Below are positions 7,301 to 64,000 of a DNA stretch of 64,000 nt, piece by piece. Numbering within the stretch: position 1 is the stretch's first letter; every line of letters starts with the position of its first letter. The notes beneath the pieces were generated by a model. That model saw only the letters and a list, made by a program, of their open reading frames with translations, was not told where the DNA came from and searched no databases. The position numbers and the translations under genes were made by a program. The stretch spans positions 248,001 to 312,000 of the forward strand of contig JAFCMP010000124.1 in the NCBI GenBank assembly GCA_017506865.1, given 5' to 3'. Source of the stretch: Tribonema minus. Taxonomy: Eukaryota > Sar > Xanthophyceae > Tribonematales > Tribonemataceae.

Positions 7301-10300
7301 TAACTAACCTAACCTTTGAAGCATACATACCACAGACGCGCCCTAGTGCTGCTGCTCTTGCTCTGCTACTTCAGATTGAATAATTACACTTCAAAGTACT
7401 TCTAATTCAGGAGTGTGCATTACAGTGTAAAAATCATGATGATGCACCTTGTGCTTTTATTCAATCTCGCTCGGGGCGCGAAAAAGCCCAGATGAATGGT
7501 ACCGAAGCTTGCCGTACGGAATCTACATGTCATGAACAGTCTGTACTTCTACCTCAAAGTATGTATTTTAAGCGTGAAAAAGTATGATGATGCACCTTGT
7601 ACTTGAGCCCAGTGCTTCCGCTCTTGCTCTTCTGCATATCAAACCCGTGCCCGCTTCCCCCTGTTTCCTTGTCCCACTCCGCCATCTTCCCGCGCACGAG
7701 CGACTTCACTCCATCCGCGCCCTGAAAAATGCCGGAACATGCCAGAATGTGCCAGGAATTAAATGTGATTGTTTTCGTTTCTTTTGCTGAGCACTGCTGC
7801 GCTCACCATGCCCAGCGGTGCTCACCACTGCCAACAAGCATAGCAGTGCTCAGCACGATTAAAGCAAGCGCAGCAGCGCTCATTTCCATCCAGCAGTTCG
7901 GTCACTATCATAAGCGCAGCAGTGCTCACCACTGCCAGACACACATCAGCCAACACTTGCTTGGAAGCGCAGCAGGGGTCAGCACAGCGCAGCAGTGCTC
8001 ACTGCTAGCACGATTGAGCCGCGCTCATCAATGTCAAGGACAGCAGAGTTCACTGCCGCTGTCAGGGTGCAAGCAGTGCTCACTGATACACCATCGAGTG
8101 CAGCATTGCTCACAATGACGCAACCACTACACCATCAAGTACACTGCAGCGCTCACAATGACGCGACCGCTACACCATCAGCAGCGCTAACCACACGCGA
8201 GCACAGCAATGCTCAGCACGCCAGTGCTCACAACTAAGTACACCATCAAATACACCTGTGCTGAGCATCATCAACTGCAGCAGTGCTCGCCACTACCAAG
8301 TGCAGCAGTGCTCACCACTATCAAGCGCGCCGCGATATGCTCGGGCGGCTGCCACCCTCCCCCCACCCGCTCCCCCTTCTCAATGAGTGCGGTAAACGGC
8401 GCGGCTGGCTGTCCGGGGTCTCGCTGAATGTCCACGCAGGTGGCCCCATAAACGATGCGTATCTGGCTGCTCCAGCGTTCGGATGCCGCTTCCGTGTGCA
8501 GCAGGGACAGGAACTCCTGGCGCAGCACCCACTGCCCCACCCACTTTCTGCGTTGAGCACAGCAACGGTTTTGAAGTGAGGGATGGCAGGAGTGCTGATA
8601 TAACAATGTATATAAGATGCGCATTGGGCAATGGGCAAAAAACATAGTTGTGATATTGAATTGAGGAGGGGGATGGGTGAACTGCTGATGCAGTGATGCC
8701 CATTTACACGAGAGGCAAAACATGCGCGGCACCCACTGCCCCACCCACTTTCTGCATTGAACACAAAAGGAGTTGTGTAGTTGTGAGGGAGGGGTTGGGT
8801 GAAGTGCTGATGTAACAATGATGATTTATACGAGATGCAATACATGCCCTTTTGTTTTTCAGCATTGAGCAGAATAAAAAGTTTTGAGATGAGGGAATGG
8901 TGGAAGTGCTGTTGGGTGCAAAGCAAGAGTGGTGATGTTGACGTGAGGGAGGGGGTGGGTGAAGTGTCAATGTAGCACTGACGATGTACACAAGATGCAA
9001 AACAGTCCTTTGTTGACCGTTTTACCATGACTCATGAGTGCAGCACGAGCAGGAGTTCCCAAGTCCTTGGCAGGGACGCAGTCACCTGCCCTACTCTCTT
9101 TTGACAAGCACCATTTGGGCCTGCGAGTGGCACAAGCAGCGCATAGCGCCGCCTCAATGCATGCAAGGGGAAACTTTCATACTCACTCATCACACCCAGG
9201 TCAGTACACTTCGATCCATACTTCTCAAGTATGAACATACATGAACTGCCTTTTTCAAGGTTTTTGACTACCTACTCAAGGGAGGTCTTGTGATCATTTC
9301 GCGCAACTTGCTTCGTGTGTGTATGTATGTGTCTATGGGGCGTTTGAATCAGCGCTTGATGTTACAGGCAACATTCAGGCAACACGCGCCAATAAATAAC
9401 TTCAACTTGAAGGTTGCCCATCCAGCGAGGAACTTGTTGATGCAGCATTGAACTATCGTTCACCGGGAGCCTTACGGTACATACACCCAGCTTGCCACAA
9501 CGCACTTGCCGATGGACAACCTCAAATCGAAGCCAGTGCTGAGTGAGCACTTGCATTGGTGCCGCTAAAGCTTGCGCTGATGGTGTTGCGCATGCTCAGG
9601 TGCGCAACGGACGATTGCGCACATACGCAGTAGATCTGGTAGTGACACATTGTTGTGTGGCACTATCTGGTATCGCCAGCGCCAAGCACTCACGCGTCGG
9701 TGCCGTCGATGTTAGCGTTGATGGTCCTGCGCACTGATGGCACTGGCAGCTGCTGCATGCATAAATCCAAGCTGAAACTTCCTAGATACGGTTACCGGTA
9801 ATTTGCAACTTCAACAGTCGTTACCACAATTAACGGTGACAGTACACGCCGCGCTTCTGCAACATTGGAAGTGGCTGGTACTGCCAGCGCCATGTACTCA
9901 CGCATTGGTGCCGCTGCAGTTTGCGCTGATGGTCCTGCATAATGACTTCAAGTTGAAGCCATCCTGAGCACGTTCACCGTGCAACTTCAACGCATGTGGA
10001 TTGTTACAATAATTGACAGTGGCAACTGCATAGCGTCTGGTCGCAGTACACGCTGCGCATCTGCAACATTAGCTGGGTATCGCCAGCGCACTGCACTCAC
10101 GCGCTGCTGCCGCCGAAGTGTGCGTTGATGGCCCTGCACCAACAACTCTCAGCTTGAAGCTGCCCTAAGGGACGGCAACTGTGCAACTTCAACAGGACTG
10201 CAATAATTGACGCTGTCAATGGCGATTGCATAGCGTGTAGAGTAGCACACGCCGTGCTTCTGGAATATCATGATTTGCAGGCATCGCCAGCGCACTGCAC

Positions 10301-12384
10301 TCACGAGCTGCTGCCGCCGAAGTTAGCGCTGATGGTCCTGCGCGGCTCCTCTGCGGGTAGGTATGTAAGCTCCCTATCCGTCTCGCTCACGCTTGCCTCG
10401 TTGAGCCGTGGAATTAGGTCAAACTGCTCCAGAAAGCGCTGGCCGCGGTCGTTGATGCGGTAGCTGAAGCCCAGGTTGGGGTCAAAGTAGCCGGCTGACC
10501 GGCGACTCTGTAAGAGCCATCATGGCAATGAGTTAATGTCAAGTCAGAGTCTGAGTGGAGATGCCTGCAAGTGGCTTTTCTCATCAAGACAAGCAGATTG
10601 GCAAGTGAGTCTGAGCTGTACCGGGTTGGGAGCGGGTTGCGGCAGGCACAGAATGCTCAGCTCAAGTGACACTATTAGCGTACTTGAAGTATCAGCAACA
10701 TGTGAGCATCATCATGACTGGGTCTACTTCAAGTTGATGTTGACGCTAATCACACACCAGGTCATGACAGTCACTGCGATTTTGCAGTTTGCAACGATGG
10801 ATGCTGCCAAAGTCACAGAGGTGAGGCATGGCATGGCACTGATGATGACAGCCACCGCCGCAGCTGCAACCCACTGCAAATACCGGACTCAGTTCTGTAT
10901 CATGAGGTACTAGAAGTAGTACTACAGTGGAACATCATGTCGTTAATCACACTATTGAAGAGGTTGAATTTCGCAATACTTGCAAGGCGCTGCTACTTGT
11001 AAATTTATCACATTACACTTAAGGCTGTGCAAATGCCAATTACATCAATGCATGACGACATAGCTCGATGTGCAGTATTCTGTGCGCTCGGGTGATGTCG
11101 AGACAACGCATCCAGTTACTTGCCGACATTTTCTGTTGTTTACCGAGATGCGGCATATTGACCAAGTGCAGCACATACAACCCAAGCTATCTCTGCAACG
11201 TGTGCATTTATCATATTCCTCTCGTGGATGTGAAAACAACCATTTCATCAATTCATGACGACATAACTTGTGCCTCAGTTGCAGCATCATGATCGTGCGA
11301 CCCAAGCATGCTGTACTTGACCCCGGCACACCACATCAACCAGATTTCATTTCTCGTCAGCGGCTGCCAATTGCACTCGGGCAGAAAATGAATAGTTCGC
11401 AAAGCGGCTACGCAAATTTCAATCAACAGGCACCCCCGCATCAAGGCCACGCACATGGTACTTTTTGCAGCAGGCCAAGGTCACAACTTGAAACGGCGCC
11501 CAAAATGGGAGCATTTGGCCATCAACTCAGCCACAGGGCACGGAGGCACTAGACACCAGGTGTCACCTGCACTGCCATTGGCATGGTAACCTACTGTGAG
11601 TGCTCCGCAGGTCCATGTAGTATTTTGGTATCACTTGCATATGCTGTTGATGCGTTGTGAGGTAGGGGTGCATGTGAGGCTACTGGCTATCTGGTTAAGA
11701 AGTCTGAAGAGATAGTGCGCAACCTTTTGTGGTACAGTTGGAAGTGCCCCTGTCTTAGCAGCGTGTGCAGAATCATATCATTTGTTGCAATGATTTAGGA
11801 GTAATTGTTGTGTAAGCTGCCAAGTATGAGCTGCAGGCATGGCCAGGTCTCGCTCGTGGCTGTTCCTACTGTTTCGCAGCCATCTGGATGTTTGGATGTA
11901 ATAATCAGCCACCAGGCTGGGAAGCCAGGGTTTCAACCTCCACACGACAAGAGGTCCAATGTATCGAGAGGTTAATTCGCGGGGTGCGGCAGCACGTGCT
12001 GTCCAAAGTGGCTACTACGAATGCAATATAACAATACAACAACCCCTAGCCGCTACGAATGTTGATGTTGAACAGCTCATGACAGGACGCAGCAGCACGG
12101 CGACAATCTGAAAACACCACCTCGTGCGTCACCACTGCTGAAGTTACCTCGATGATGGTGATCCCGCTCCAGCCACGCTTCGCAAGCACCAGCGCTGCGG
12201 CGTATCCCGCAGGTCCAGCGCCAACTATCACAGCTCCCCGCTTCTTCGAATCATCCGATATGGCCTGTGCTGGTGGAGACATGCTCGTCCTAGGGGTGGT
12301 GGTCATGGCCAACCTCGGCCGAGTAGCGAAAGCTGCAACGCCGTCCAATAATGCCCCTAGCAGCAACAGCGGTAGCCGCCGCAT
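1175..12384 (-). CDS. FAD-dependent monooxygenase, kynurenine 3-monooxygenase-like, plastid-type leader, complete 11-exon gene
   Basis: Predicted flavoprotein hydroxylase of the KMO/UbiH/PHBH class, which uses FAD, NAD(P)H and O2 to hydroxylate a small (often aromatic) substrate. I joined 11 exons with GT-AG introns; all phases agree and give 544 residues from ATG 12,384 to TGA 1,175. The three family signatures are present: GAGPAG (residues 55-60, FAD ADP-binding fold), VGADGVKS (DG motif, about 224-231, split by intron 3) and VGDAIHCFPPDLGQG (GD motif, about 400-414, split by intron 8), followed by NAALEDV. The leader has a hydrophobic core (residues 4-18) and then AFATRP, resembling signal plus transit peptides of complex red plastids. 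The end (about 522-537) is a hydrophobic helix, as in membrane-bound KMO. The substrate cannot be read from the sequence; other class A flavin monooxygenases remain possible. The stop of the APC7 gene lies 604 bases upstream. Confidence 0.9.
1888..2109 (-). CDS. FAD monooxygenase exon 10 (residues 424-497)
   Basis: Reads VLSECLDKCDDQIGSALRSY then QQQRAPDAKAI, the L-x-x-x-L, Y-x-x-x-R-x-P-D-A-x-A-I helix that follows the GD motif in KMO-type enzymes. Acceptor GCTGCAG, donor CAG|GTGAGG, phase 0. Confidence 0.92.
2949..2976. repeat. Interstitial TTAGGG-like repeats
   Basis: Imperfect TTAGGG/CTAGGG units next to the donor of the 30-base exon 9 of the FAD monooxygenase. Confidence 0.7.
2992..3021 (-). 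CDS. FAD monooxygenase exon 9, 30-base microexon (residues 414-423)
   Basis: Ten codons, GVNAALEDVA, between ATATGCAG and GCG|GTAAGT. They complete the conserved GQGxNxxLED run begun in exon 8, so this tiny exon is essential to the fold and would be missed by an ORF search. TTAGGG-like repeats lie just past the donor. Confidence 0.9.
3717..3827 (-). CDS. FAD monooxygenase exon 8 (residues 377-413)
   Basis: Carries AVLVGDAIHCFPPDLGQ, the GD motif that contacts the FAD ribityl chain. Acceptor TTCGCCAG, donor CAG|GTATGT, phase 0. Confidence 0.92.
4532..4601 (-). CDS. FAD monooxygenase exon 7 (residues 353-376)
   Basis: Short exon, SEWLTPEGCQEWVDGEGGAF and PPPQ, between ATCTGCAG and CAG|GTATGT. 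Phases match both neighbours. Confidence 0.82.
4939..5094 (-). CDS. FAD monooxygenase exon 6 (residues 301-353)
   Basis: Contains NIITWPSHEVWTKKTGPELF and AYLQASFPQLPLR, resembling the KMO stretch in which a WP/LP motif is followed by a helix and FPxxxP. Acceptor CTGCTCAG, donor CTGAG|GTGCGA, phase 2. Confidence 0.87.
5773..5876 (-). CDS. FAD monooxygenase exon 5 (residues 267-301)
   Basis: Reads VMSIPPGFKLAHNSTDDDVA. Acceptor CCTCCAG, donor GGCAA|GTGAGT, phase 2, which joins exon 6 in frame. It lies in the substrate-domain sheet and has no diagnostic motif of its own. Confidence 0.82.
6783..6882. repeat. Two-unit tandem repeat in intron 4
   Basis: A unit of about 50 bases containing TTCAGCACCAAAAACGTGCA occurs twice, nearly identically, in intron 4 of the FAD monooxygenase. 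Confidence 0.8.
7430..7595 (-). repeat. Echo of the exon 4 donor edge, FAD monooxygenase
   Basis: ATGATGATGCACCTTGT, which spans the exon 4 donor at 7,590-7,600, recurs at about 7,437-7,455. The second copy abuts an inverted copy of the dispersed 110-base repeat. Confidence 0.55.
7445..7566 (-). repeat. Dispersed ~110-base repeat, inverted copy
   Basis: Minus-strand copy of the unit also found on the plus strand at about 13,158, 13,945 and 27,548. The shared core includes CTGGGCTTTTTCGCGCCC, which can fold as a small hairpin, then TGAGCGAGAAT. No coding sense is evident; it may be a MITE- or SINE-like element. Confidence 0.75.
7596..7721 (-). CDS. FAD monooxygenase exon 4 (residues 225-266)
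   Basis: Begins GADGVKSLVRGKMAEWDKET, the DG motif that binds FAD and NAD(P)H in this family. Acceptor TTTTTCAG, donor AAG|GTGCAT, phase 0. Confidence 0.9.
7795..8315 (-). repeat. Short-unit array based on the exon 3 donor, FAD monooxygenase
   Basis: GCAGTGCTCACCACT-like units recur about a dozen times. On the minus strand the unit is the exon 3 donor context GTGGTGAGCACTGC, so the array looks like a run of decayed donor-site copies filling the start of intron 3. Confidence 0.65.
8316..8547 (-). CDS. FAD monooxygenase exon 3 (residues 147-224)
   Basis: Contains WVLRQEFLSLLHTEA and IRIVYGATCVDIQ, the R-x-x-L-x-x-x-L helix and following strand of the class A monooxygenase fold, and ends RLIV just before the DG motif. 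Acceptor AACGCAG, donor GTG|GTGAGC, phase 0. An open frame continues into the repeat array upstream, but the splice junction and phase fix the exon edge. Confidence 0.88.
8548..9015 (-). repeat. Echo array on the acceptor side of exon 3, FAD monooxygenase
   Basis: CACCCACTGCCCCACCCACT plus TTCTGC at the exon 3 acceptor (8,528-8,551) recurs at about 8,730-8,755, and the intervening GTGAGGGAGGGG...GTGCTGATGTAACAATG segment is repeated at about 8,575, 8,785 and 8,950. Confidence 0.75.
9540..10304 (-). repeat. Echo array on the donor side of exon 2, FAD monooxygenase
   Basis: The last ~40 bases of exon 2 with its donor (10,270-10,345) recur at about 10,080-10,140, 9,885-9,940, 9,665-9,740 and 9,543-9,605. 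Units are roughly 130-220 bp. Most copies keep a GTGAGT-like donor and the coding-like TTAGCGTTGATGGTCCTGCG. Confidence 0.85.
10305..10507 (-). CDS. FAD monooxygenase exon 2 (residues 80-147)
   Basis: Follows a TTACAG acceptor. It reads GYFDPNLGFSYRINDRGQRF, the region where KMO-type enzymes have RSINLALSxRG. The donor is TC|GTGAGT, phase 2. Its 3' edge is repeated four times in the next intron. Confidence 0.9.
12148..12384 (-). CDS. FAD monooxygenase exon 1 (residues 1-79)
   Basis: Starts at the only suitable ATG. It encodes the leader LPLLLLGALLDGVAAFATRP, a Thr/Ser/Pro-rich linker and the first Rossmann strand-turn-helix with GAGPAG. It ends GAG|GTAACT, phase 0. Confidence 0.92.
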
Positions 12385-12988: not shown

Positions 12989-13024
12989 TTAGTACTCGTC
13001 GCTATCGTCGCCCCTGCCTTGCCA
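12989..13024 (-). CDS. APC7 exon 13, terminal (residues 717-727)
   Basis: Eleven codons, WQGRGDDSDEY, then TAA, after a GACAAAG acceptor. With exon 12 this gives DSEAMHQW, closely resembling the end of human APC7 (DSEAAQW). Confidence 0.85.
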   Translation of the reverse strand, partial: WQGRGDDSDEY

Positions 13025-16000
13025 CTTTGTCAAGAGCAAAGAGCAACGACAGTCAAGCTGTAGATGAGTGAATGATCACAGGTGTGACAGCTGCAGATTG
13101 TGTCTCTACAGTATGCACTGCATAACAGCTTATGCACATGCACTTTGTGTACATGTACAAAAGCGTTGTCATTGACACACTTTCAGACAGTCACACGACT
13201 TGTATATTCCCTACAGCAAGCTTCAAGTTAGATGCCATTCATCTGGGCTCTTTTGCGCCCTGAGCGAGAATTAATAAAAAGTAGAAAAGCGCCAGCGCCG
13301 CAGCAGGAGTTCCTGAAGTACATCCACATCACAACAGGTACAAGTGTTTTGAAAAACAAGGATGTATCCTGAAGTAGATCGCACACCTCTGAGCGCGCAA
13401 TGCCACCACCAAAAGTGCTGTCAAAGGTGCTGTCAAGTGGGAGCCCTGTGACTCCTGTAGTGCCCTAATGCAGGCCACCAGCTGCACTGAAACAACCTTG
13501 TGCTACCCCTAGACAGGCAATTACTAACAAGGGGTTCACATCATAATATGTGCAGCAATGGGGCAGGAACATAGAACGACGATCAACCTCCATTTCTGGC
13601 ATTTGTGTGGCCACACGCACTTCTGAACGGTGAGCAGATGCACGTGATGACAGAGCACTAAAAGAAGTGAGAGTCCACCGAACACATACCTGATGCATTG
13701 CTTCAGAATCATCAAGTTCAAGTTGATCGTCATTGTCCCCGTCGCCATCAATGGTTGCATCTTCGTCGTCGAAGTCGGGGTCGAGGCCACGCAGAATCTG
13801 CAGACAACAAGAAGAAAAAGCGGTTCAACACACTTTACAGAGGCTACAGATCTGAAAAAAACTTTACTGACAAGTAGTGTGCTTCTAAAACAAAAGAAGT
13901 TTTTGTACACAACCACCTTGAGCAAAGATGTACATACATAACCTTCAGACTGTCACACGACATGTGGACCCCGTATAGCAAGCTTCAAGTTAGATTCCAT
14001 TCATCTGGGCTTTTCGCGCCCTGAGCGAGAATTGATAAAAAGTACACAACCTGTAACCTGCTGCAAGGTACACGCACGTTGGCAGATAGTTTGAGGGAGG
14101 GTCATGCACAAAGTGCCAGTGTGCGGCTCATTGCACGGAGAATGTCTGCATCACAAAACGTTGAAACTCTGCACAGCGGATGCCTCCTGCGCTCACCACA
14201 CTTTTAATGCCCAGGAGTCACAGGAAGTTATGCCAGCCTGAAGCAGAAGTGGGGGCAATAAATGACACCCCTGCTAGCACCAGCATCGCATCAGTGCAGC
14301 GCAAACAGTCAAAGTTCTACAGTGACGTTCCTTGAGTTGATGTGATGAGGCACCTGCGGCTCACACCAAGCCCCCTGAGTTTGTTTCTGGCAGTGCCGTA
14401 ACTTCATGTGTTGAGCCACTTCTCAATCGAGCAACACTGGAAGCCAAACGCCAACCAAATCGCTCTGCCTATCACCTCTCGCCCTTGCCCTAACGCTGCA
14501 TTTCTGGATCATCTTGCTCCTCAGCGGTCACAGCAGCGCGGAAAGATTGATTGATAACAAATCAGTACTGCAGCCAGTACTGTTCAAAAAGTGCAGACTG
14601 CTCTCAAGCGTGCAAAGCTACAGCGCGCGCGCAACTTTTATACTTCCATGTGATGTCAAGCCTCCTCAGCCCGTCATGTCGCGACCTTACAAGCACGAAG
14701 GCGGCGCTATTGCAGCAAGGTGCCTAAAACTAGCAACACCTTCCAGCAGCACATGGCTTGCGATGCATCCATCCGCAAACAGTTCCAACATACCCGTTCC
14801 TGTCCTGTTGCCTGTTGAAGTTTGCAACTTGAAGTAATTGTTATTCCTGTGGCACGAGCATCAAACCTCAGTGCTCACCATGTCCAGCCTCATGAGCCCC
14901 TCCCTGGCAGCCTCATTGGCGCCCTTCTGTCGCGTGGCAATGTCGTTCATAGTTGAAGTACTTATTATTCCTGTTTCGTGGGCATCAAGCTCACCATGTC
15001 GAGCCTCCGAAGCCCCTCGTTTGCGGCCTATTCTGTTGCGTGGCAATGTGGTGCATCATTGAAGTACTTTCTATTTCTGTTTTTATGCATCAAACCTCAG
15101 TGCTCACCATCTCGAGCCTCCTGAGCCCCTCCTTCGTGGCCTCATTGGCGCTGTTCCGACTCGTGGCAGTGTGGTTGATAGTTGAAGTACTTGTTCCTCC
15201 TATATCATACGTATCGAAGCTCAGTGCTCACCATGTCGAGTCTCCGAAGCCCCTCCTTTGCGGCGTCGTTGGCGCTGTTCTGTCGTGTGGCGATGTGGTA
15301 GTACCTCAGCGCGTCATCGTAGCGGCGCGCCGCAACGCATGCGTCGCCCAGCTTCGTCGGTAGCGCGTCGGGCGTGCGACTGCAGTTATACGGACACATA
15401 AAATGTCCAGGGAGTGAGCGCGAGAGCAGCAGCAAACGGGATGTGTCTTGACTGAAGTACGATGATATGCCAGCGAACGGCGCATCGATACATGTACTGT
15501 TTTTTGAAGTAATTTTTACAGCATATGTGGCACGCTGCAGCGCACGCGTCGCCCAGCTTGGTCGGCAGAACATCGGGCGTGCGGCCGCAGCTAGACAGAC
15601 ACACAGAACGTCCAGGGACTGAGCGCGACAGCGGCAGCATATTGACGTCTATGGAAACGAATCAATTCCCGCTCACTCGCGCCTCAGCTATCAGCACTTG
15701 CATTTGGGTCCGCAAGGCTTACTGAGCAGCACTTCATGCTGCTTGTGTCCAACAACCAGCACATCCGGAAGGGCATGATTGACATGTTGAGGCGCTCTCT
15801 CTCGCTCACAGCGCCGAGCGCTGCCGCACTGTGACCTGAGCACTGCGCCCGGATGGCCTTGCTGAGCAGAACTTTGCACTCCTCGTGCTCGCCGGCGACC
15901 AGGCCGTCTCCACCTTAAGCTTCAACATGTCATCGCAACCTTGAACTTCGACTGAACCTTTCAGCCGCAACCCTCAACTTCAACACCAGACTTTGAAGTG

Positions 16001-33730: not shown

Positions 33731-33825
33731 CGTCTCTTGCTGTATACTACGTAGAAAGCTGAAGATGATGAGTGCCTAAAATTGAACTCCATGAGTTGAA
33801 GTTAGAGTGGGTTCGGCGCCAAAAT

Positions 33826-33964
33826 CGCACTGCTCAGCGCCTGAGCATGCGCACGAGACGTGGTGCTCATCTACATTTACCCCACAAATGATCATGTGCT
33901 CATGACAGAGCAGCATGGCGGGCAAGTGCGCAAGCAACTTGCCAGTAAAATGTATGCGTGGAAT
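33826..33964 (+). repeat. R1 repeat, copy A, left part
   Basis: Matches 44,305-44,455 closely (ACGAGACGTGGTGCTCATCT ... GCGGGCAAGTGCGCAAGCAA). It is interrupted at 33,964 by the LTR element and resumes at 39,038. Confidence 0.88.
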
Positions 33965-41541: not shown

Positions 41542-42583
41542 TTACCAGATAACACAGCATTGAGCTATAGGCAAGACCTGCTTGATCTCAGCTTTCAGAT
41601 AGTTACCTGCATCAGTGCCGCATGCAGCATGAGGTGGGCACCCGTTGGCCAACGCCCAGTGCAGCAACTCAGCGTACCCACTTTCTGCAGCCGCTTTGCA
41701 GGTCTCCGAGTCCGCCCGTTTGTACGGGCCCACTGAAGGATCTCCAAATGGCCGCCCTGCGCTGCCGCCTTGCATGTCTCTGCATTCCATGGGCAGTCGT
41801 TGGCTCGAGCCCACTGCAGCACCTCCAGGTGCCCCCCCTGTGCAGCCGAGCTGCATGTCTCTGCATGCCACGGGCAGCCGTTGTCATGCGCCCACTGCAG
41901 TACCTCGAGATGTCCATGTTCTGCAGCGAAGCTGCACACACGCTCGTCCCATGGGCAACCATTGGCTCTGGCCCACTGCAGCACGTGAAAGTGGCCCCCG
42001 CGTGCGGCGAGCACGCAAACAAACTCAGATGATAAGTACCATTACTGTAAGCCCACTGCAGCACGTAAAGATAGCCTGCGGCTGCGGCGAACGTGCATAT
42101 GTCCTCGGAGGAGAAAGGGCACCCGTTGGCACCAAGCCAGTTCAGCACCTCCCAATTCCCGGCATGTGCAGCTAAATACCATGCTGCGACATCCCAGGCG
42201 CAGCCCTCGGCACGAAGCCACTGCAGCATCTCAAGTTGCCCGCAAGATGCAGCGAAAATGCAGTCATCCTCTGTTAGTTGCAGGTCAACCTGTGAGCGAA
42301 GCCGGCGCAGGCCGTCGATGTCGCCGCAGCGAATGCATGATGTCTGCGCCGTCTGAGGCCGCAGACCGTTGTGCACGGCCCATTCGATGAGCTTCACGCT
42401 GGCAACAGCTTCTACGGCCAACGTCAAATGCTGCTGCTGCTCGGTCTCGTTGGCGCTTCTGAAAAGCCGGCATGTGCTTCGGATCATGAGAGATGGGCGC
42501 AGGAAGGCCAGAATGTGCTGGACTAGCGATAGATCCGTTAGCGGATGCGTATCTGTTGCCTGCATCGCCTTGGGCTGCTGCAT
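41542..42583 (-). pseudogene. F-box/ankyrin-like repeat gene, copy 2, broken
   Basis: Paralogue of the gene at 32.8-33.7 kb: the same start MQQPKAM, F-box-like LSLVQHILAFLRPSLMIRST, then about eight ankyrin-like units (GHLEVLQWAHDNGCPW and similar). The frame changes near 42,030 and again near 41,715, so it is a pseudogene or badly called. Its last frame runs past the copy 1 stop to 41,542. An upstream ATG at 42,640 is also open but is not shared with copy 1. Confidence 0.8.
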
Positions 42584-46286: not shown

Positions 46287-46358
46287 TCATGCTGCGACAG
46301 CCTCAATTTCTCGTTGAAAGCGGGCTTTGTCTTCTCGTGCCATGGCCTCAAATCTGGC
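46287..46358 (-). CDS. Topoisomerase I exon w16, end of HMG box 2 (829-851)
   Basis: [23 protein letters not shown] then TGA. This is helix 3 of the second HMG box. Acceptor TTGTGCAG. Confidence 0.92.
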   Translation of the reverse strand, partial: ARFEAMAREDKARFQREIEAVAA

Positions 46359-55047: not shown

Positions 55048-55084
<37 letters not shown>

Positions 55085-58000
55085 AGCTACTGGTGCAATG
55101 GGGACAACTGATCACAGATGGCCAAGCCACCAACAGCCAAGGTACGGCCAGCTAGCAGGCATTCGAAGCAGGATGTTCGCGCACGTTGCTGCTCTTAGGT
55201 AGGGTTACGCGTCACATGACATGGTTTGCAGTCACAAGCCTCGCAGTTCCACATATCATGTTCCAAAAATGATCATGAACAAAATATATTCAAAGCAGCG
55301 ACACATACATGCCTACGCATGTTCCTACAGCGGAGCTCACCTCAGTGTATAGACTTCTCGATGGTACCACTTCAACCAAAACAAACATGCATGGCTATGG
55401 CTATACGAGTGCTCCTCGCTTGGCGTATGCGTGTACGCGTAACGTGCACCTTGAAGTGCATCTATGTAAAGATACCTAAATGCCTACAGCAGTGCTCACC
55501 TCAGAAAGCGTGGGCAGCCACGCGCGCCTGGCCTCCTCAGAGGGGATCTGAGCCTCCGTGTTGTCAACCTTGGCCTTCAGTCCCTCGTCGCCGCTGTAGT
55601 ACTGCGGACCGAGCACAAGGGGGGAACTTCAAATATGAAGACATTGTGGTACTAGAAATATAGTTCTCCTCGTCATGGCAACGCTGAGAAGTGAGTCGGT
55701 GAGCTGTGCGCATGGCCTGTTTGAACTGCGCCTGTGGGGTAGATCATATACATAAACAGGGGTAGTGCTGCCTCCTCGGGAAAAAAAATGGCAGCCGCTG
55801 AGCGCGATCGCAGTGCAGTGGTACAAGCATGGACGCAACTCACCAGCAGTGAGTACATACAAGGGCGTGGCAAAGAGAGGGGCAACTGTGTAGCAAGTGC
55901 GTGCAAAGCAGCTTGTGATGGTTGTGCTGCACCTTCCCCGCACTCCCCTGGGGGATATCGCTCCAGCAGCTACGTGCATCACCAGATCAGCGACGAACGC
56001 AGTCTGTGATAATAGGAGCTCCTGTCTGCCTGACAGCGAGCCATCTCACAAGTAGTCAGCAACTACACGGGAATGGCAAATATTGAGGTAGCTGTGTAGC
56101 ACAGCAGCTTGCGCTGCCCCGCTGCCCCCCTGAAATAATCGTGCACGGTGGCTATGGCTCCGTTAGCTAAGTGTGCCACCAGCGGATTCAGCAACGCTAT
56201 ATATATACGTATGACAATTAATGTTGAAGTGAAGGTACCTGCTTCACTTAGATCATCCGGTCTGCCTGACTGCGTGATCTGAGCCCGTTCTGTGTGTGCA
56301 ATGCACTTCAATGTTGAACTTTGAGGGATGCAGGAACTGCCAACATTTCAGCAGATAACAGTTGTTGAAGTAGGAGCTGTCTGCCTGGCCAGACCGCTTG
56401 CCATCTGATCGAGCTGCTCCTGGGTGCGCGCAGTGCACTCCAACATTGATATTTGAAATCTGATTGTTGAAAGCAACTGTAACAATGTATAGATACCTGC
56501 TTCAGGCATCCTGACTGCGAACCTCAACGTTGAAGCTTTAAGCAGATGAGAGAACTTGAGTTTCACAAGTCTGGTGATACCTGCTTCAAGTAGGTCATCT
56601 TAACGGCCTGACCCCGCACGATCTGGTCGAGCTGCTCCTCCATGCGCACGGTGAACTTCAATATTGATGTAAACAAATAAAAAAGATGGTGGTGAAGCTC
56701 GTATTCATATTTGAGAAATGATTGTAGAAGCAACTATGATGGTGTATAGACACCTGCGTCGGATCGGTCGTTCTGTCGGCCTGGCCCCGCGCGATCTGGT
56801 CAAGTTGCTCCTCCATGCGTGCGGTGAACTTCAGGAAGGACGCTTTGAGCGGATGAGAGAACTTCAGAGTTTTACAGGTCTGGACATACCTGCTTCAAGT
56901 AGGCCGTCCTGTCCGCCTGACCCCGCGCGATCTGGTCAAGCTGCTCCTCCATGCGCGCGGTGAACTGTGTGTCGACAAAGTCAGGGAAGTAGCGCTCCAG
57001 GAGGCGTGTCACCACAAACGCCGACAGCGAGGGGGCGAGCGCTGACTTCTGAGCCTGCGCACACGCCAGAGAAGGACACGCAAGAAAAAACAAAGCACAC
57101 CGGAGAAGAGGGGAAAGTGGCTGCTGTCAACACTGCAGCTGCAGAAAAGAAGTGGCAGGGATGGTGCGTAGCGTCATTGTTGAACAGGCGCAGAAGAAGT
57201 TTCGACGAGCAAGCGTAGAAGACGAAAAACTAGTGAGAGCAGCACCAAAAAAAAGTTGGGATAGTGCTCTGAGAAAATGAGTATGCGTCTACTTCGAAGT
57301 ACTACAATTGGGTTATTGCCAGCCCAGCGTTTTTGTTTTTTACCTGTTCCAACAATGTTTACCCGCTGCACCAGTTTCTCCACAGCAGCATTGTACATGA
57401 AACGTGTTGCTTTCCGCACAGCACAAAACGCTGGATATGCCATCATGCACTGCTGCTAGCATTGAACTGTGACTATCCTGTCACAGCTCGTAGTCCGAGT
57501 GAAGCAGAGCAGTATACCTGATACATCATTGGAGCAGGTGAAAGAATATTGTAATGTAGTGCAAGCCGCATGAACAAATCACATTAAGCACTTGTAGCAT
57601 GTGTTGATACGCAAACCTACTTAACATGTACGCCTGCCCACATATCCTTGTGTTTCTGCTGCAACTTGTCTTCCAAGTAGCGCCTCTCCTTTAGGGTATC
57701 CAGAATGGTGACGTGCTGGGTCATCAATGACCTCTGGCAGCAATTCTGAGCGCCAACCTGCGCACCCTTACGTTCATACCCTACAGTTCTGCATCAACAC
57801 ATGTACTGTTTACATCCTTTTGTCACATCGCCGACACCCGCACGGCATAGCACACATACTGCATACACACATACCTGTGTGGAGCGCCTCTCTAGGATGG
57901 TGGCGTATGTGCTCTCCAGAAGTGAAGCCCTACCTATCACTACACATACCCCCATGCTCATACTGCATACATACATACATACCTGTATGTAGCGCCTCTC

Positions 58001-61000
58001 TTTGAGCGTCTCCAGGATGGTGGCGTATGTGCTGGGGCGCCCTACGCCTACTGCCTCCAGCTCCTTGACAAAGGACGCCTCCGTGTATCTGCGGCGGCAG
58101 GGGGATTGGTTGCGGGCGGTCAGAGCCAGAAATTGGGAGAACATCGCTGGACCATATGAAAAGGCTAGAAGATCGCTGCATCACTGTGCCGCGCTGTGGC
58201 GTTGGCCGAAAGACTGCAAAAGCCACGGCGCAAGAACGCGACAAGCTGTGCCAAGGCGCGGTTTTGCACCAAGTTGGCGAACTTTGCTTCGTGGGGGTCA
58301 GAGTTAGGGAGACATTTCCTGGGTCACTGCGCGGCGCTGTGGGAAGCTGTGGAGCTCACCAAATAGAATGCAGAAGCCGGGACACAAGAATGCAGCAGGC
58401 TGTGCTGAGGCGTGGTCTTGCACCATGGTCGTGAGTGTGAGCTGTTTGCTGCGTGTCTGCAGAAAAGAGTGGTAATTAGGTTTGGTTTAGCCTAGGTCTG
58501 CTTAGGGTTAGGTTAGGGTTAGCTGTCGCCGTGCACCTTTACTGGTTTGTGGCGCCATTGTTCTGTGCCATACTTTTCAAGCACTTCGTGGCTCCAGCGC
58601 TCGACACACTGACTGCAGCGAACCGCTGCGAGGTTGCTATTGCAGGCAACCTTTACCAGCAGTTTCAACTATGGCACTTACATTTTCAAACAGCACAACC
58701 ACTCAGCCCGCAAACTGTTTGATGTGGCGCTCCGCTTCCGCGCGATATCTTTGCCGGCCAGCAGCATCAGCGTGTCAACGGCTTTTGTGCGTGGTCCACC
58801 TTACAGCCTTAAAGATCATGAACCCTACCCTTGCGTTGAATCACAGCATTCACTCACCGCGCTGGCGGCTTGGTGTGACGCTCCACATACGTGAGCTCCG
58901 CGCAGTCCAGCGGCATGCCCTCCGCCAGCGGCAGCAACAGCCCATCATCATTGGCACGAATGGCAAACACTCTGTGGAACTGCCACCTTACAGTCTTAAA
59001 CGTCTAGGGTTTAATCACAGCGCTCACTAACCTGGTTGGCGGTTTGGTGTGACGCTCCACGTGCGTGAGCTCTGCGCAGTCCAGCGGCATGCCCTCCGCC
59101 AGCGGCAGCAATAGTGCGTCAGCATTGGCGCGAATGGCAAATACTCTGTCAAACTGCCACCTTGCCGTCTTCAACACCAACTTCAGTCTTCAACACTAAC
59201 TTCAACTAACCGGGCTGGCGGCTTGGTGTGACGCTCCACGTGCGTGAGCGCCGCGCAGTCCAGCGGCATGCCCTCCGCAAGCGGCGGCAGCAGCGCGTCG
59301 TCATCGGCCAGCGCAGCAGAAGCGCCGTCTTCGTCGCCGCCGCCGCTAGCGGCATCGCTCTCCGTGTCCTGGTACGCACGCAGCCAGCCAGGCTCTACGA
59401 CCTGCTTACCGGTGGCTCTGAAGGTGGCCACGGGCGTTCCAGCCTGGTGGTACAAGCCACAGTGATGGAGTGAAGTGGCAATAAATACTCTTTAAGTATG
59501 GTGTGATCTAAGATAGATGTTTAAGGTCAATGTGAAGTGAGGGCTCTGGGCCTTTGGCAAGCCAGCCAGGTGCCATGCCAGAGTGATGGAGTTGATGTGG
59601 TATCTCAAGTATGATGCGCTCTGAAGGCTGTCCTGAAGGTGGCCACGGGCATTGCAGCCTGGTGGTACCGGTCACGGTTACGCAGGTGAATCAATACTTC
59701 AATTATGGCGTGATGTGAAGATCGATGCGTTGCATTTTTCAGCAAGTTAGCTGTTCAAAGGTGCTCACAAGGGTACCTGCGCATGGCGATTCAACAGGAG
59801 TATCCATGTATGATACACTGACACTGGTGCAATGTATGGTGAACTGACAGGGGGGCATGTAGGTATGTGCACTGACAGGGTATGTAGATATGGGTAGGCT
59901 CACCTTGGGCTCTGCCTCCAACATGGCGGTGGTGTAGTCCAGTACGGCATCCGCCATGACACTGCGACAGCGGCACGGCAGTGTGGCAGCGAGCACAAAA
60001 TAAGAGGTTTGAAGCAAAGTTTACGGCTTCGAAGTGTTTTGAGGTACATGACCATCATGAGAGATCACGACGCGTACACTAGAGTAATAATATGCATAAA
60101 ATTTACATGAGGCTGCTAGAGGCCTAACTGGACACCATCATACAGTATGATTGTGTATGATTCATTACTGAGCGTCAGGTGCAAAGTACCTGCGCAGCAA
60201 CTTTTGAAAAGTCAGAAAGATTGATCAGTTGGCCATAATCCTCATCAACATGAGCTGGACTCAAGTTCAGGTAATCAATACTTTCGCGTTCTTGTTTTGG
60301 CGGCCGGTCTCAATTGTCGGTAATTTGCGCTACCTGGCATTAATATTCATGAAGGTGAGGTGGTTGAGTCCGTGCAAGATGCTCAACATCATCATGCTCA
60401 ACATCCATTATTCGACACCTGATGCAGCACGATATTTGAGAGCCCACCATCTCGTACTTCAATTCTCAGGAAGCATCACCCGGCCATAGTCCTGGTAATG
60501 ATGACTTGGTGCAGGCGCAGCTGGACGTATGATGAACACAAATGATTAACACATATACTTCAAATACTCATAAATGCAACAAAATTGGATGAATGCAACC
60601 TAATGGGTAATGAATACAGAGCTCATATAGACGCAGGTAGAAAATGAGACATCATCACGCGTACACTTCAAGTACTCATGGATGCAACAAAATTGGATGA
60701 ATTCAATAAACCTGGTCAAAAAATAACATTGTGTAATCATTTGCATCATGTTTATTTAATCTAATTTAGATCTTATACGTATACTTCGAAGTACATGTGT
60801 ATATACTTTGAAGTATATCTATTTGTTTACTGGCCATGGTCCTCATAAATATGAGGTGGTGGAGGCCCAGTTGCACACCTCCAGCCCCGTCTGATAATGC
60901 AACAAAACTGGATAAATTCAACACAAATGGTGATGAATAAAACAATCATTACCTGGCCATGGTCCTCATGAATATGAGCTGGTAACGGCCCAGTTGCACG

Positions 61001-64000
61001 CCCTCCAGCCCCGCCGGTAAATGAATAATACAAAGTTCATTCATACATGTATAATACTTCGAATGGATTAGACTATACTTCGAAGATGCTTACACATTTG
61101 TATATATTTAGAAGTATTTGTTTACCTGGCCATAGTCCTCGTGAAGATGAGCTGGTAAAGGCCCAGTTGCACACCCTCCAGACCCGTCTCCGGCGGCGAC
61201 AGGAAGCGACCCTCTGAGGCCACAGCGGGGCGGATGGCCTCGTGCGCCTCCTGTTGCAGCAGCGCCCAATGCGCAGCGCACGCCATGTTAGAGGCCGAAC
61301 GATGGTGTATAAACTGTGGAGTCTGTGCAGGTGTATACCTCAACGAAGTACTAATAAAGGTACATAGAGCAGCGTCGTAGTTGAAGCGCGGTCCCCTGCA
61401 GGCACAGCAGGCCAGATGGCCTCAAGCGCCTGATGTTGCAGAAACGCTCAATGTACCCACTACATAACATGCTTGAAGTCTCTTCTGTATAGTATCACTG
61501 CCGTGAGGGGGCACAATTACTGTAATCGGGTTAGGGTTAGGGCTAGGGCTAAAATTAGCTTTGATGGAGGGACTTTAGAACCACGCGCTCACCACCGGCA
61601 TCATGCACAAACTAGCGGCAGGGTGCAGGGGCGGTGTGGGTTTGGGATTAGGGTTACGGTAAACCCAAGGGGCAGTCCACGCCATGCTTCCAACAACCAA
61701 TCATTTTCACCACAAGGTACTGCCTCACGAGTGTATGCAGTTCATAAGACATGCGCCCCACTGTCGCAGACTACATTGTGGCATTCAGCACAGGGCTGCA
61801 GAGGGAGGGCAAAGGGATACGTGGCTGCCCTTGGCGTCTTTGTGGTCCTCGCCTAACCCTAACCCTAATTCTAACCCTGACCGTGACCCGAACCCTAAAT
61901 CTAACCTAGCACCAGGTGCTCCGTTCTGTACGCAAGCTCTGTGCGCTCAACAAAAGCAGAATAATCCTTAAAGCGTATGCATACCCTAGCTGCCCTTGGC
62001 TCCATGTTCAGCAGCCCAAATAATTGGAGAGAACGCAATGACATACCTGGCTGCACTTGGGCTTCTTATTTGCACGGTCGCTCGTGGTGGAGGCCAGATG
62101 CTCCGCACCGCACACGCATTCCGTGCACTCAACAAAATCAACTTCGACATGCATAATACCCTAGCTGCCATTGGCTTGATGCTCAGCAGCCTAGCAGGAC
62201 GGAAAAGGAGGCAAAGACATACCTGGCTGCCCTTTGGCTTCTTGTTGGCGCGGTCGCTAGTGGTGGACGCCAGGTGCTCCGCACCGTACACACGCTCCGT
62301 GCACTCCCGTGCCAGCCGACGTGCCTCCTCGCTCAGGTTGGGGTTGTCGGTGCGCATGTAAGTGATGAGGCCGCTCTCGTACAGCTCCTGCGCAATAATC
62401 ATGGTCACCTGCAGCAGCGGCGCATGACAGTGCTCAGTCAGCATCTAGGTATGTAGGTATCGTATCCGGCTCAGTCAGTACGTGATGAGGCCGCTTTCGT
62501 ACCGCTCCTGCGCCACCATCATGGTCACCTCGGCGGAATGTGACAGTGCTCAGTCAGCATCAGGTATGTACGTATTGTATGCTGCTCAAGCAGTGCGTGA
62601 TGACGCTGCTCTCATATAGCTCCTGCGCCACCGTCATGGTCACCTGCGGCGACGTGTGACAGAGCTCAGTCAGCAGCATCCAGGCATGTAGGTATCAGTC
62701 AGCTTCTAAGTAGGTATATGATGAGGCAGCTCTCGTACAGGGCTTGCGCCACAATCATGGCCATCTCCAGCAGCGGTATGCAACAGCGCCCAGTCAGCAG
62801 CATACAGGTATGTAGGGATTATTCAGCATCTAGGTAGGTATTGAATGAAGTAGCTCTCGTTCAGGGCTTGTGCCACCAGCATGGTCACCTGCAGCAGCGG
62901 TACACGGAGCATTCACTCAGCAACCGTATGTATTGGTATGTTTGGGAGTTACTCTGACTCAGACCGTACTCAAAAGAATCAGGCCACTCATACAGCTCCT
63001 GTGCCATGATCATGGTCACATGCAGCCGCTTGCAGACAGGGCTCAATCAGCCACGATCTGATGGCTGTGACTGCTGTCCCAAAGCTTTGCGTGTATGATC
63101 ACGCCGTTCTTGTACCCATGGACAGCTCCTGCGCTACCATCATCAACACCTGCGCGGAAGTGAGCGGTGCTCAGCCAGCATTAGGTATGATGGCATTGGG
63201 GCTTGTCTACTTTGTACCGGTGACGGCGGTGAGCTAAGCTACAGGACATCTTGTTGATGCAAGCGTGTATGCATGCCCATGATAATAAGGGTTGCTCAAT
63301 TTCCACAATGCGGCGCCCTATGTTGCTCAGTGTTCTGTTTCTGGCCTACTTGACGGGCACGAGCTCAACTTCAATTTCAACTTCAAGGCACTGTGCAGTC
63401 GGCTGCATCAGCCCCCTGACCAGCACTTACTGCGATTGCACCATCAAGACAACAGACATAAGTCACAGGATGCGTGCTCGCACCTCAAAAGTGAGACTGG
63501 TGAATATGATGAATGGCGAATGCGATGAAGTAACAGTGGTGCACACACGAGCGAGATGTGTTGAACGCGCACCATGTACAAAACATGCACCATGTACATC
63601 AAAGTACACACACGTTACAAGACGGTAGTCACGGATGTGTGCTCGCACTTTGGAAGTGAGCCTCAGCTTGCGGTTCCCCTCCTGCTGCAGCGTGGAGGTG
63701 ATGAAGGGGGGCGGCGGCTTGCGCCGCGAGCGCCGCGTGTCGAGCGCTGCCACGCGCCACGCAGCAGTGCTCAGCGTGTCCCGCAGCGCAACGGCGGCCT
63801 CGCCTTGCAGGTGCGTCACCTGCGGTCCAATGTTGAAGTGAAAACAGCTGCAGGTTGAAGTCTGTAGTGACCACCTTCAACTGCGGCAGTGCATGCAAGT
63901 ACTTAATGGGTGCACTTGCCGCAAGCGCTACGTGTCGAGCGCTGCCACGCACAATGCAGCAGTGCTCAGTGTGTCCCGTAGCGCGACGGCGCCCCTGCCT
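46287..64000 (-). CDS. Bacterial-type DNA topoisomerase I (type IA) with two C-terminal HMG boxes; 3' part, 16 exons in window
   Basis: Type IA enzymes relax negative supercoils through a tyrosine-linked single-strand break. The 16 exons join in phase into 851 residues ending at TGA 46,287. Landmarks in order (window numbering): [20 protein letters not shown] (~38-55); active-site region [10 protein letters not shown] with Tyr74; HEAIRP (~122); FRATG...[47 protein letters not shown]; four topoisomerase C-terminal repeats ([32 protein letters not shown]); a Lys/Gly linker; HMG box 1 (about 670-735); a basic linker; HMG box 2 (about 775-851). The Toprim/Mg2+ half must lie beyond 64,000. The enzyme core is bacterial in type, so an organellar origin is likely. 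The HMG boxes, DNA-bending domains typical of eukaryotes, suggest work on nucleoid or chromatin; location cannot be judged without the N-terminus. Confidence 0.95.
47163..47507 (-). CDS. Topoisomerase I exon w15, end of HMG box 1 and start of HMG box 2 (714-828)
   Basis: [20 protein letters not shown] ends box 1. A Ser/Lys/Gly-rich basic linker follows, then [17 protein letters not shown] and [14 protein letters not shown] of box 2. Acceptor GTGACAG, donor AAG|GTGATT, phase 0. Confidence 0.92.
48732..48791 (-). CDS. Topoisomerase I exon w14, HMG box 1 helix 2 (694-713)
   Basis: Twenty codons, [20 protein letters not shown], which fit helix 2 of an HMG box (usually VxKxLGxxWKxLSPEEK). Acceptor CAACCAG, donor AAG|GTGTGT. 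Confidence 0.9.
49455..49476. repeat. Interstitial TTAGGG repeats
   Basis: Three TTAGGG units, GTTAGGGTTAGGGTTAGG, 13 bases beyond the donor of topoisomerase exon w13. Confidence 0.9.
49488..49802 (-). CDS. Topoisomerase I exon w13, fourth repeat and start of HMG box 1 (589-693)
   Basis: [20 protein letters not shown] opens the fourth repeat. A Gly/Lys/Ser linker follows, then [20 protein letters not shown], the first helix of an HMG box. Acceptor GCCACAG, donor AAG|GTAATT. TTAGGG repeats lie just past the donor. Confidence 0.92.
50751..50848 (-). CDS. Topoisomerase I exon w12, third repeat, second half (556-588)
   Basis: [20 protein letters not shown] then [12 protein letters not shown]. 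Acceptor CCTCTAG, donor GAG|GTATGT, phase 0. Confidence 0.88.
51675..51784 (-). CDS. Topoisomerase I exon w11, third C-terminal repeat, first half (519-556)
   Basis: [20 protein letters not shown] then [13 protein letters not shown]. Acceptor ACCGCAG, donor GAAG|GTGAGG, phase 1. Confidence 0.9.
51785..51930 (-). repeat. Echo of the acceptor side of topoisomerase exon w11
   Basis: CAGGGTGATGCGTCACTAGC at the acceptor (51,765-51,785) recurs at about 51,888-51,907 as CAGGGTGATGCGTCACAAGC. Confidence 0.75.
52219..52275. repeat. Head-to-head telomere-like repeat
   Basis: TTAGGG units (about three) run into TTTAAATAC and then CCCTAA units (about five). 5'-(TTAGGG)n-(CCCTAA)m-3' is the orientation left by fusion of two chromosome ends. 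It lies inside the topoisomerase intron after exon w10. Confidence 0.9.
52440..53419 (-). repeat. Echo array on the donor side of topoisomerase exon w10
   Basis: GCAGATTGAGGTACTGGCAG GCCCTGTCGAGATCGAGATTCCA, the exon w10 end with its GCGCACC donor, recurs about six times near 53,236-53,300, 53,080-53,135, 52,895-52,960, 52,765-52,840, 52,645-52,705 and 52,465-52,505, with CCCTAA-like runs between some copies. Confidence 0.9.
53420..53588 (-). CDS. Topoisomerase I exon w10, second C-terminal repeat (463-519)
   Basis: [26 protein letters not shown] then [14 protein letters not shown]. Acceptor TTCTCAG, donor CCAG|GTGCGC, phase 2. Confidence 0.92.
54100..54504 (-). repeat. Echo array on the donor side of topoisomerase exon w9
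   Basis: ATACCTTGCTCAGACAAGCG CAGACAGTGCTGTATGGCCTC is copied at about 54,385-54,445, 54,230-54,265 and 54,105-54,155. Confidence 0.83.
54505..54751 (-). CDS. Topoisomerase I exon w9, first C-terminal repeat (381-463)
   Basis: [17 protein letters not shown], an Asp/Gly-rich loop, then [20 protein letters not shown], i.e. a GRFGPYVE...LPxDL..xEAIxLL repeat. Acceptor CACGCAG, donor CAAG|GTATGC, phase 1. Confidence 0.88.
55050..55086. repeat. (CTG)n microsatellite
   Basis: About twelve CTG triplets in the intron between exons w8 and w9. Confidence 0.95.
55500..55601 (-). CDS. Topoisomerase I exon w8 (347-380)
   Basis: Reads [20 protein letters not shown], equivalent to the FYxPFxxxVxxAE segment, and ends WLPTLSE. 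Acceptor TCCGCAG, donor GAG|GTGAGC. Confidence 0.88.
55990..56889 (-). repeat. Echo array on the donor side of topoisomerase exon w7
   Basis: CCGCGCGATCTGGTCAAGCT GCTCCTCCATGCGCGCGGTGAAC, the exon w7 end and donor, recurs at about 56,750-56,835, 56,578-56,660, 56,383-56,445 and 56,238-56,315, with a remnant near 56,020. Each unit includes an ACTTCAA...TTGAA pair. Confidence 0.9.
56890..57048 (-). CDS. Topoisomerase I exon w7 (294-346)
   Basis: Reads [32 protein letters not shown], the LLxxxFPxLVDxxFTAxMEexLDxIA block. Acceptor GCTCAG, donor CAG|GTATGT, phase 0. Confidence 0.95.
57655..57982 (-). repeat. Echo array on the donor side of topoisomerase exon w6
   Basis: Copies of the exon w6 end at about 57,872-57,930 (with ATACCTGTGTGGAGCGCC and a GTATGT donor) and, more diverged, 57,665-57,720. 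Confidence 0.83.
57983..58088 (-). CDS. Topoisomerase I exon w6 (258-293)
   Basis: Reads [20 protein letters not shown] then [16 protein letters not shown], one of the most conserved blocks of TopA. Acceptor TCTGCCGCAG-type, donor CAG|GTATGT, phase 0. Confidence 0.95.
58850..59210 (-). repeat. Echo array on the donor side of topoisomerase exon w5
   Basis: GGCGGCTTGGTGTGACGCTC CACGTGCGTGAGC...CAGTCCAGCGGCATGCCCTCCGC is repeated at about 59,030-59,110 and 58,858-58,935. Both keep the exon-donor junction order. Confidence 0.9.
59211..59443 (-). CDS. Topoisomerase I exon w5 (181-258)
   Basis: Reads [20 protein letters not shown], an acidic stretch ([14 protein letters not shown]), then [15 protein letters not shown] and HTKPPAR. 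Acceptor ACCACCAG, donor CCCG|GTTAGT, phase 2. Confidence 0.93.
59444..59700 (-). repeat. Echo of the acceptor side of topoisomerase exon w5
   Basis: GAAGGTGGCCACGGGCATTG CAGCCTGGTGGTACC at about 59,634-59,668 copies the exon start and ACCACCAG acceptor at 59,420-59,455. Confidence 0.83.
59904..59961 (-). CDS. Topoisomerase I exon w4 (161-180)
   Basis: Nineteen codons and a split one, [20 protein letters not shown], equivalent to SQMADAVFDTT in bacterial TopA. Acceptor GTCGCAG, donor AAG|GTGAGC. Confidence 0.9.
60225..61125 (-). repeat. Echo array on the donor side of topoisomerase exon w3
   Basis: TACCTGGCCATGGTCCTCAT GAATATGAGCTGGTAACGGCCCAGTTGCAC recurs at about 60,950-61,015 and 60,830-60,893, with weaker copies near 60,480, 60,345 and 60,226. 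A 120-base ACTTCAAATACTC.. ATGCAACAAAATTGGATGAA unit also repeats here. Confidence 0.85.
61126..61250 (-). CDS. Topoisomerase I exon w3 (120-161)
   Basis: Begins [20 protein letters not shown] and ends [13 protein letters not shown], the AHEAIRPT...LYxLIWxRFxAS segment of the family. Acceptor GCAACAG, donor CCAG|GTAAAC, phase 2. Confidence 0.93.
61850..61910. repeat. Interstitial CCCTAA-like run
   Basis: CCTAACCCTAACCCTAATTC and variants in the intron between exons w2 and w3. Confidence 0.8.
61985..62222 (-). repeat. Echo array on the donor side of topoisomerase exon w2
   Basis: ACATACCTGGCTGCACTTGG GCTTCTTATTTGCACGGTCGC at about 62,040-62,110 copies the exon w2 end with its GTATGT donor; a further remnant lies near 61,975-62,005. 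Confidence 0.87.
62223..62408 (-). CDS. Topoisomerase I exon w2, active-site tyrosine (58-119)
   Basis: Contains [20 protein letters not shown], with the catalytic Tyr in the TYMRTD motif. The usual TDS is TDN here. Acceptor GCTGCAG, donor CAG|GTATGT, phase 0. Confidence 0.95.
62409..63185 (-). repeat. Echo array on the acceptor side of topoisomerase exon w2, ~120-bp units
   Basis: GTGATGAGGCCGCTCTCGTA CAGCTCCTGCGC..CATCATGGTCACCTGC.GC, the exon w2 start with its acceptor, recurs about six times near 62,480, 62,600, 62,718, 62,842, 62,982 and 63,105, at spacings of 117-140 bp. A GCTCAGTCAGCAT..AGGTATGTAGG tail accompanies most copies. Confidence 0.9.
63649..63819 (-). CDS. Topoisomerase I exon w1 (window residues 1-57)
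   Basis: Reads [20 protein letters not shown] and [20 protein letters not shown]. PPFxTSTLQQ is diagnostic of type IA enzymes. Acceptor ACCGCAG, donor AAA|GTGCGA, phase 0. Confidence 0.93.
63915..64000 (-). repeat. Echo of exon w1 on its acceptor side, cut by the window end
   Basis: CGAGCGCTGCCACGC...GCAGCAGTGCTCAG.GTGTCCCG.AGCGC repeats exon bases 63,738-63,795. This copy contains an in-frame stop relative to the exon, so it is not the functional exon. Confidence 0.8.

Follow-up and report, generated by a model that had tools for sequence, protein, structure and literature searches.

Internal tandem repeats at exon-intron boundaries have been described in human paralogues located in segmental duplications (PMC2812944). 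In the part of that report cited here, the repeats run head-to-tail at the border, like the arrays presented below, and are tied to elongation of both exons and introns; the loci are isolated, with 27 intron modifications after inspection and units averaging 30 bp. In potato, a new intron arose through a duplication that spans an intron-exon boundary (PMC4974935). According to the cited part of that work, the duplicate consists of an intron end and an exon start, like the acceptor-side unit described here; potato gains a new intron, whereas the introns described here, as modelled, were already present and become longer. From Drosophila, partial exon duplication is reported at AG/GY proto-splice sites (PMC2891723). 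Exon sequence is duplicated into the eventual intron in both systems, but the Drosophila cases in the cited excerpt are few and are proposed to create new introns. Introners also add intron sequence in protists and are characterized, in the cited excerpt, as repeated introns that form families and carry inverted and short direct repeats (PMC7789003), whereas each array described here is built from its own exon border.

The present analysis covers a stretch of 64,000 nucleotides from Tribonema minus, hereafter the window. Unlike the isolated human loci, it shows tandem copies at 28 of 77 exon borders in three unrelated genes, mostly spaced 120-190 bp apart. In the open-licence literature, screened by titles and the first lines of abstracts, no paper on pervasive exon-border arrays was found. 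An initial reading of the letters and open reading frames (the sequence-only reading) knew of no earlier description; this agrees with the search as far as pervasiveness is concerned, but not for single loci, for which cases are published in the cited parts of PMC2812944 and PMC4974935. Border tandem repeats are thus already known; no report found in this search describes about a third of the borders as affected, the proportion counted here in three genes of one window.

The three genes and all arrays are listed in Table 1. The 41 exon models were built from coding segments, GT-AG borders and an unbroken frame. All complete introns (n=38, median 938 bp) have GT-AG borders, and the frame is uninterrupted at the exon joins of the modelled exons. 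For the topoisomerase, 17 bacterial TopA loci served as a guide to exon placement and for nothing else. The spliced topoisomerase matches Topoisom_bac (1.1e-78) and HMG_box (3e-23), the former with 265.6 bits, as compared with 48.4 and 41.2 bits for two lone exons; the two stretches of the HMG_box match correspond to two HMG boxes at the end of the gene (46287-49802). A search with a single APC7 frame, with stops written as X, gave no match. Among viral contigs, no relatives of APC7 or of one retroelement ORF were found. In the product of exon k1 a signal peptide precedes an AFA motif, a feature of secondary plastids that makes an alga the probable source. Exon a2 of APC7 contains a perfect 21-bp tandem repeat (29681-29721), adding seven residues in frame.

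Table 1. Gene models and exon-border arrays of the window, in window coordinates.
Feature	Coordinates	Strand	Basis
FAD monooxygenase gene	1175..12384	(-)	exons k1-k12 (n=12); FAD_binding_3 4.5e-19
APC7 gene	12989..30532	(-)	exons a1-a13 (n=13); solved APC7 chains 7e-32 (spliced model)
Bacterial-type TopA with C-terminal HMG boxes	46287..63819	(-)	exons t1-t16 (n=16); 5' end outside window
k2 donor-side array, 4 copies	9557..10343	(-)	edge test + copy alignment
k3 acceptor-side array, 2 copies	8520..8911	(-)	edge test + copy alignment
k3 donor short-unit echo, 16-base sequence matched 16x including own	7794..8318	(-)	fails 60-base test
k4 donor-side echo, 2 short copies	7185..7616	(-)	edge test + copy alignment
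a3 acceptor-side array, 3 copies	27935..28479	(-)	edge test + copy alignment
a3 donor-side array, 2 copies	27379..27925	(-)	edge test + copy alignment
a4 acceptor-side array, 3 copies	25804..26448	(-)	edge test + copy alignment
a5 acceptor-side array, 4 copies	24399..25065	(-)	edge test + copy alignment
a6 acceptor-side echo, 1 weak copy	23502..23725	(-)	edge test + copy alignment
a6 donor-side array, 4 copies	22927..23478	(-)	edge test + copy alignment
a7 donor-side echo, 1 copy	21607..21971	(-)	edge test + copy alignment
a8 donor-side array, 4 copies	18009..18661	(-)	edge test + copy alignment
a10 acceptor-side array, 2 copies	16314..16776	(-)	edge test + copy alignment
a10 donor-side array, 2 copies	15855..16254	(-)	edge test + copy alignment
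a11 acceptor-side echo, 1 copy	15324..15639	(-)	edge test + copy alignment
a11 donor-side array, 3 copies	14822..15299	(-)	edge test + copy alignment
t1 acceptor-side echo, 1 copy, truncated at window end	63723..64000	(-)	copy alignment, outside edge test
t2 acceptor-side array, 6 copies	62354..63196	(-)	edge test + copy alignment
t2 donor-side array, 3 copies	61808..62306	(-)	edge test + copy alignment
t3 acceptor-side echo, 1 copy	61206..61453	(-)	edge test + copy alignment
t3 donor-side array, 4 copies	60230..61189	(-)	edge test + copy alignment
t5 acceptor-side array, 2 copies	59414..59708	(-)	edge test + copy alignment
t5 donor-side array, 2 copies	58852..59308	(-)	edge test + copy alignment
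t6 donor-side array, 2 copies	57677..58036	(-)	edge test + copy alignment
t7 donor-side array, 4 copies	56236..56966	(-)	edge test + copy alignment
t9 donor-side array, 3 copies	54073..54552	(-)	edge test + copy alignment
t10 donor-side array, 6 copies	52466..53489	(-)	edge test + copy alignment
t11 acceptor-side echo, 1 short copy	51764..51914	(-)	edge test + copy alignment

In the edge test, the 60 terminal coding bases of each of the 76 exon edges that adjoin complete introns were aligned to the closest 800 bp of the intron beside them and also to the 37 other introns. For 26 of the 76 edges the own-intron score was 30-103, exceeding the best score in any of the 37 other introns (at most 27); at the remaining 50 edges it was at most 23. 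The own intron ranked first for 28 edges as compared with 2.05 expected, and chance was rejected as a source of the echoes. Two edges were added to the 26. The upstream edge of t1, whose intron leaves the window and which stands outside the 76-edge test, has 83 aligned bases at 86% identity. The k3 donor scored 18 in the 60-base test; its 16-base sequence has 16 matches with at most four mismatches, its own site included, as compared with 0.035 in shuffles. Echoes are therefore counted at 28 of 77 edges, 16 on the donor and 12 on the acceptor side, and involve 20 of the 41 exons in the three genes of this one window. Eight exons (k3, a3, a6, a10, a11, t2, t3 and t5) are echoed on both sides. 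The sequence-only reading had claimed that exon ends are copied into their flanking introns, with about 25 arrays at 20 of 40 exons, 15 on the donor and 10 on the acceptor side; the edge test bears this out, and the counts are close. One correction applies to its statement that the copies fill the flanking introns: exons k5-k12 and t12-t16 showed no echo in the edge test, so not every intron is filled. Echo introns are clustered along the genes (p 0.002 for runs overall and 0.026 within genes), so only some borders take part. Exons with echoes are somewhat longer than the others (median 167 vs 108, p 0.055).

The controls place the echoes at the edges and in direct orientation. The reverse complement scored at 1 of 76 edges as compared with 26 of 76 for the forward strand, and inverted copies were rejected as a description of the arrays. 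No echo was found for the far end of the same exon (0/48) or for the exon middle (0/26), and the deepest reach into an exon is 102 bases; whole-exon duplication and mutually exclusive exons were discarded on these grounds. Random points in intron interiors scored in 37 of 800 cases. Random intergenic points scored in 59 of 800, or in 40 of 800 without two ankyrin ORFs, and 29 of those 40 lie at 43.0-43.75 kb, a stretch with short triplet-rich repeats. The random-point run counts 27 of 76 edges instead of the 26 of the edge test, because its windows extend beyond the next exon.

Long-unit echoes comprise 73 copies at 27 edges, arranged head-to-tail across the exon-intron border; the first alignment row per edge is the query's own intron part and was excluded from the copy numbers. 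Successive copies are a median of 153 bp apart (interquartile range 124-182), and the first copy lies, in register, 116-260 bp from the exon edge. The copies extend 21-102 bases into the exon. In 17 of 21 multi-copy edges, as counted by eye, at least two copies share their exon start to within four bases, so that most arrays look like one seeding event followed by amplification. The tandem duplication proposed in the sequence-only reading stands within the window; for most arrays, repeated independent events at the border look less likely. Inspection by eye revealed no motif at the exon breakpoints. In the AGGT form of intron gain each unit carries both exon borders; such units were not seen in the window. 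An acceptor echo occurs in just 5 of the 15 introns with a long-unit donor echo, and in those five the two arrays occupy separate stretches, so this form of gain was rejected.

Across the 73 copies at 27 edges, first, second and third codon positions are 0.898, 0.895 and 0.782 identical to the exon; the value for the intron part is 0.833. On sequence comparison, this profile fits silent change in the exon together with drifting copies. Copy-to-copy identity is 0.844, 0.833 and 0.732 at the three positions. Two copies agree against the exon in 86 of 1256 cases at position 3 and in 33 of 1289 and 21 of 1276 at the others. This excess fits silent exon changes after copying plus copies taken at different times; it is also compatible, as is the deficit of stops (5 in 1157 codons as compared with 12.7 simulated, P 0.01), with some coding constraint on the copies. 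The simulation overstates the expected stops, since some of the differences are changes of the exon itself. The decay of copies with distance, as claimed in the sequence-only reading, holds for the alignment score, which is higher in the nearest than in the farthest copy at 16 of 20 edges (p 0.012); for coding divergence the trend is not significant (13 edges against 5, of 18 in all; p 0.11), two further edges with too few coding sites having been dropped.

The reading preferred here, with a probability of about 0.75, is that the introns have grown by local tandem duplication straddling splice sites, followed by amplification in place and drift of the copies. The duplication itself follows from the sequence; its cause, for which the sequence-only reading named repair and replication slippage as candidates, we infer. 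Seeding would be a tandem duplication of about 115-260 bp, with one breakpoint about 20-100 bp inside the exon and the other in the intron. Next to the border, the seed would place a copy of the exon end with the splice site and the beginning of the intron, or else of the last part of the intron with the beginning of the exon, and the unit would then be amplified in situ. The exon copy would be kept by selection, while the intronic copies would drift near-neutrally. Seeding would, we infer, be mutationally biased to exon borders. The most plausible route would be staggered breaks whose two ends are filled in before rejoining, and the units, spaced at about the size of a nucleosome, would be compatible with internucleosomal breaks at exon borders. 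Tandem duplications are known to arise from fill-in of staggered breaks (PMC8355091). As reported in the cited part of that paper, fill-in by CST and Pol alpha-primase at break ends yields small direct tandem duplications, like those in the window, but at induced breaks in cells of mouse and human, where the overhangs were 43-49 bp long, shorter than the window units, and with no link to exon borders drawn in that part of the text. Break fill-in with end joining would be expected to depend on Ku, CST and Pol alpha and to leave little microhomology at the junctions; divergence of the window copies is too great for microhomology to be legible in them. That exon-intron borders are hotspots of tandem duplication, and that this is the main route of intron lengthening genome-wide in the lineage, is a tentative extension to which we give somewhat less than even odds. 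If it is true, every intron preserves, in decaying form, the history of the exon borders beside it.

The border bias could instead be one of survival or of visibility. Duplications would then land anywhere, and those at borders would stand out either through the conserved exon copy or through a survivorship ratchet, in which a diverged intronic copy cannot recombine harmlessly with the exon, so that border arrays cannot contract. The visibility part was addressed by masking all exons and searching the remaining window against itself, with local clusters collected at E 1e-5. Of the 22 local clusters, two intergenic ones (ankyrin ORFs) and one pair of a dispersed repeat (13179-14044) were excluded, which left 19 intronic arrays. 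Fifteen of the 19 belong to an echo edge, as assigned by coordinates. Under a null of randomly placed units, wholly intronic or crossing one edge, a 150-bp unit crosses an edge with a chance of 18.6%, which gives p 2e-8 for 15 of 19; with 250-bp units p is 1e-6. The test is conservative, because an edge array is visible in it only with two intronic copies. Exon conservation is therefore not the source of the border bias, and a visual bias towards exons was ruled out. Landing elsewhere does occur, as four arrays are purely intronic (10990-11268, 53726-53887, 58193-58425 and 60554-60706), the last scored as non-edge although it fuses with the t3 donor array at E 1e-3. The array at 53726-53887 is a 54-bp triplication, at most 94.5% identical, outside the edge arrays. 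Differential survival could still be a source of the border bias: copies match the exon at identities between 0.71 and 0.95, with no copy at 0.96 or above, as would be expected of unstable near-identical copies. Very recent events are therefore not seen; duplication may have paused, near-identical copies may be prone to loss, or the assembly may have collapsed them. On balance we regard random landing with later sorting as unlikely.

For the local tandem duplication at splice sites that we prefer, the lengths of the introns are of direct relevance. Taken from the exon edge through the outermost copy, and leaving out the k3-k4 intron and the cut t1 intron, the arrays span 11,795 of 39,783 intron bases, about 30%. 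The median length is 1164 bp for introns with long-unit echoes (n=21) as compared with 696 bp for the others (n=17, p 2e-4), with the k3-k4 intron placed in the no-echo class. After subtraction of the arrays, the median of the echo introns is 622 bp (vs 696 bp, p 0.41). The arrays thus account for the greater length of the echo introns, and the suggestion of the sequence-only reading that tandem duplication centred on borders is growing introns is supported within the window. The same figures bear on the view that the introns were formerly tiny, so that any genic duplication of 120-200 bp took in exon sequence and the border bias is a relic. One intron of 111 bp would suit it, but echo introns stripped of their arrays are still about as long as non-echo introns; the arrays therefore probably formed in introns that were already long, unless the remaining sequence is a later gain, and we consider the relic view quite improbable. 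The lengthening of introns is usually ascribed to transposons. The arrays offer a rare view of this lengthening as distinct from the origin of introns. Each is its own built-in reference, from which ages, breakpoints and drift can be measured, since the exon copy is under selection and the arrays can be dated against it.

Copies might also be kept for a function, for example as donor copies whose binding of U1 protects long introns, or as alternative splice sites. Donor GT is retained in 76 of 78 cells, against 89.7% for the first two codon positions (one-sided p 0.011), and the deficit of stops described above points in the same direction, although the simulated expectation is too high. Acceptor AG, retained in 41 of 46, shows no excess over background, and 22 of the 73 copies carry a deletion in the exon part. 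Splice-site retention was set aside as evidence of function, being a weak signal on the donor side alone, and functional retention appears very unlikely. The copied splice sites are nevertheless natural tests of the cell's choice between near-identical sites.

Introner-like mobile elements, which are known from algae and dinoflagellates in the cited part of PMC7789003, and an assembly artefact, to which tandem arrays are prone, are both scarcely credible here, because the 26 edges score higher in their own intron than in the 37 others and never in the next-but-one intron (0/70), so that the related sequences in many introns expected of introners are absent, and because copies 71-95% identical with a codon-position pattern are not a product of misassembly. 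The remark of the sequence-only reading that the arrays are not a dispersed element is supported within the window by the comparison with the other introns.

Several other features were recorded in the window. Interstitial telomere-like repeats (TTAGGG) form 14 clusters (at 623, 2950, 21308, 22064, 25918, 26430, 28991, 49460, 52221, 52538, 58502, 61528, 61648 and 61854), 13 of them within introns of the three genes. They occur in 7 of 22 echo introns as compared with 2 of 16 others, with the k3-k4 intron counted here in the echo class (p 0.25, not significant). The scattered intronic repeats might be a trace of telomerase capture at breaks. The intron between a7 and a8 contains long imperfect palindromes at 19861-20215 (72% self-complementary) and 20262-20999 (68.5%), perhaps a foldback element. 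A dispersed repeat of about 105 bp is present at 13179-13283 and 13941-14044 (87.6% identical), with a third copy, found by eye, at about 27548-27660. The intergenic sequence contains two ankyrin-repeat ORFs (32830-33775 and 41672-42679) and an integrase-bearing, retroelement-like ORF (35476-37969). The 7-mer TTGAAGT/ACTTCAA occurs 97 times in the whole window as compared with 11 expected, with densities of 2.24 per kb in echo introns, 1.11 in other introns and 0.31 in exons.
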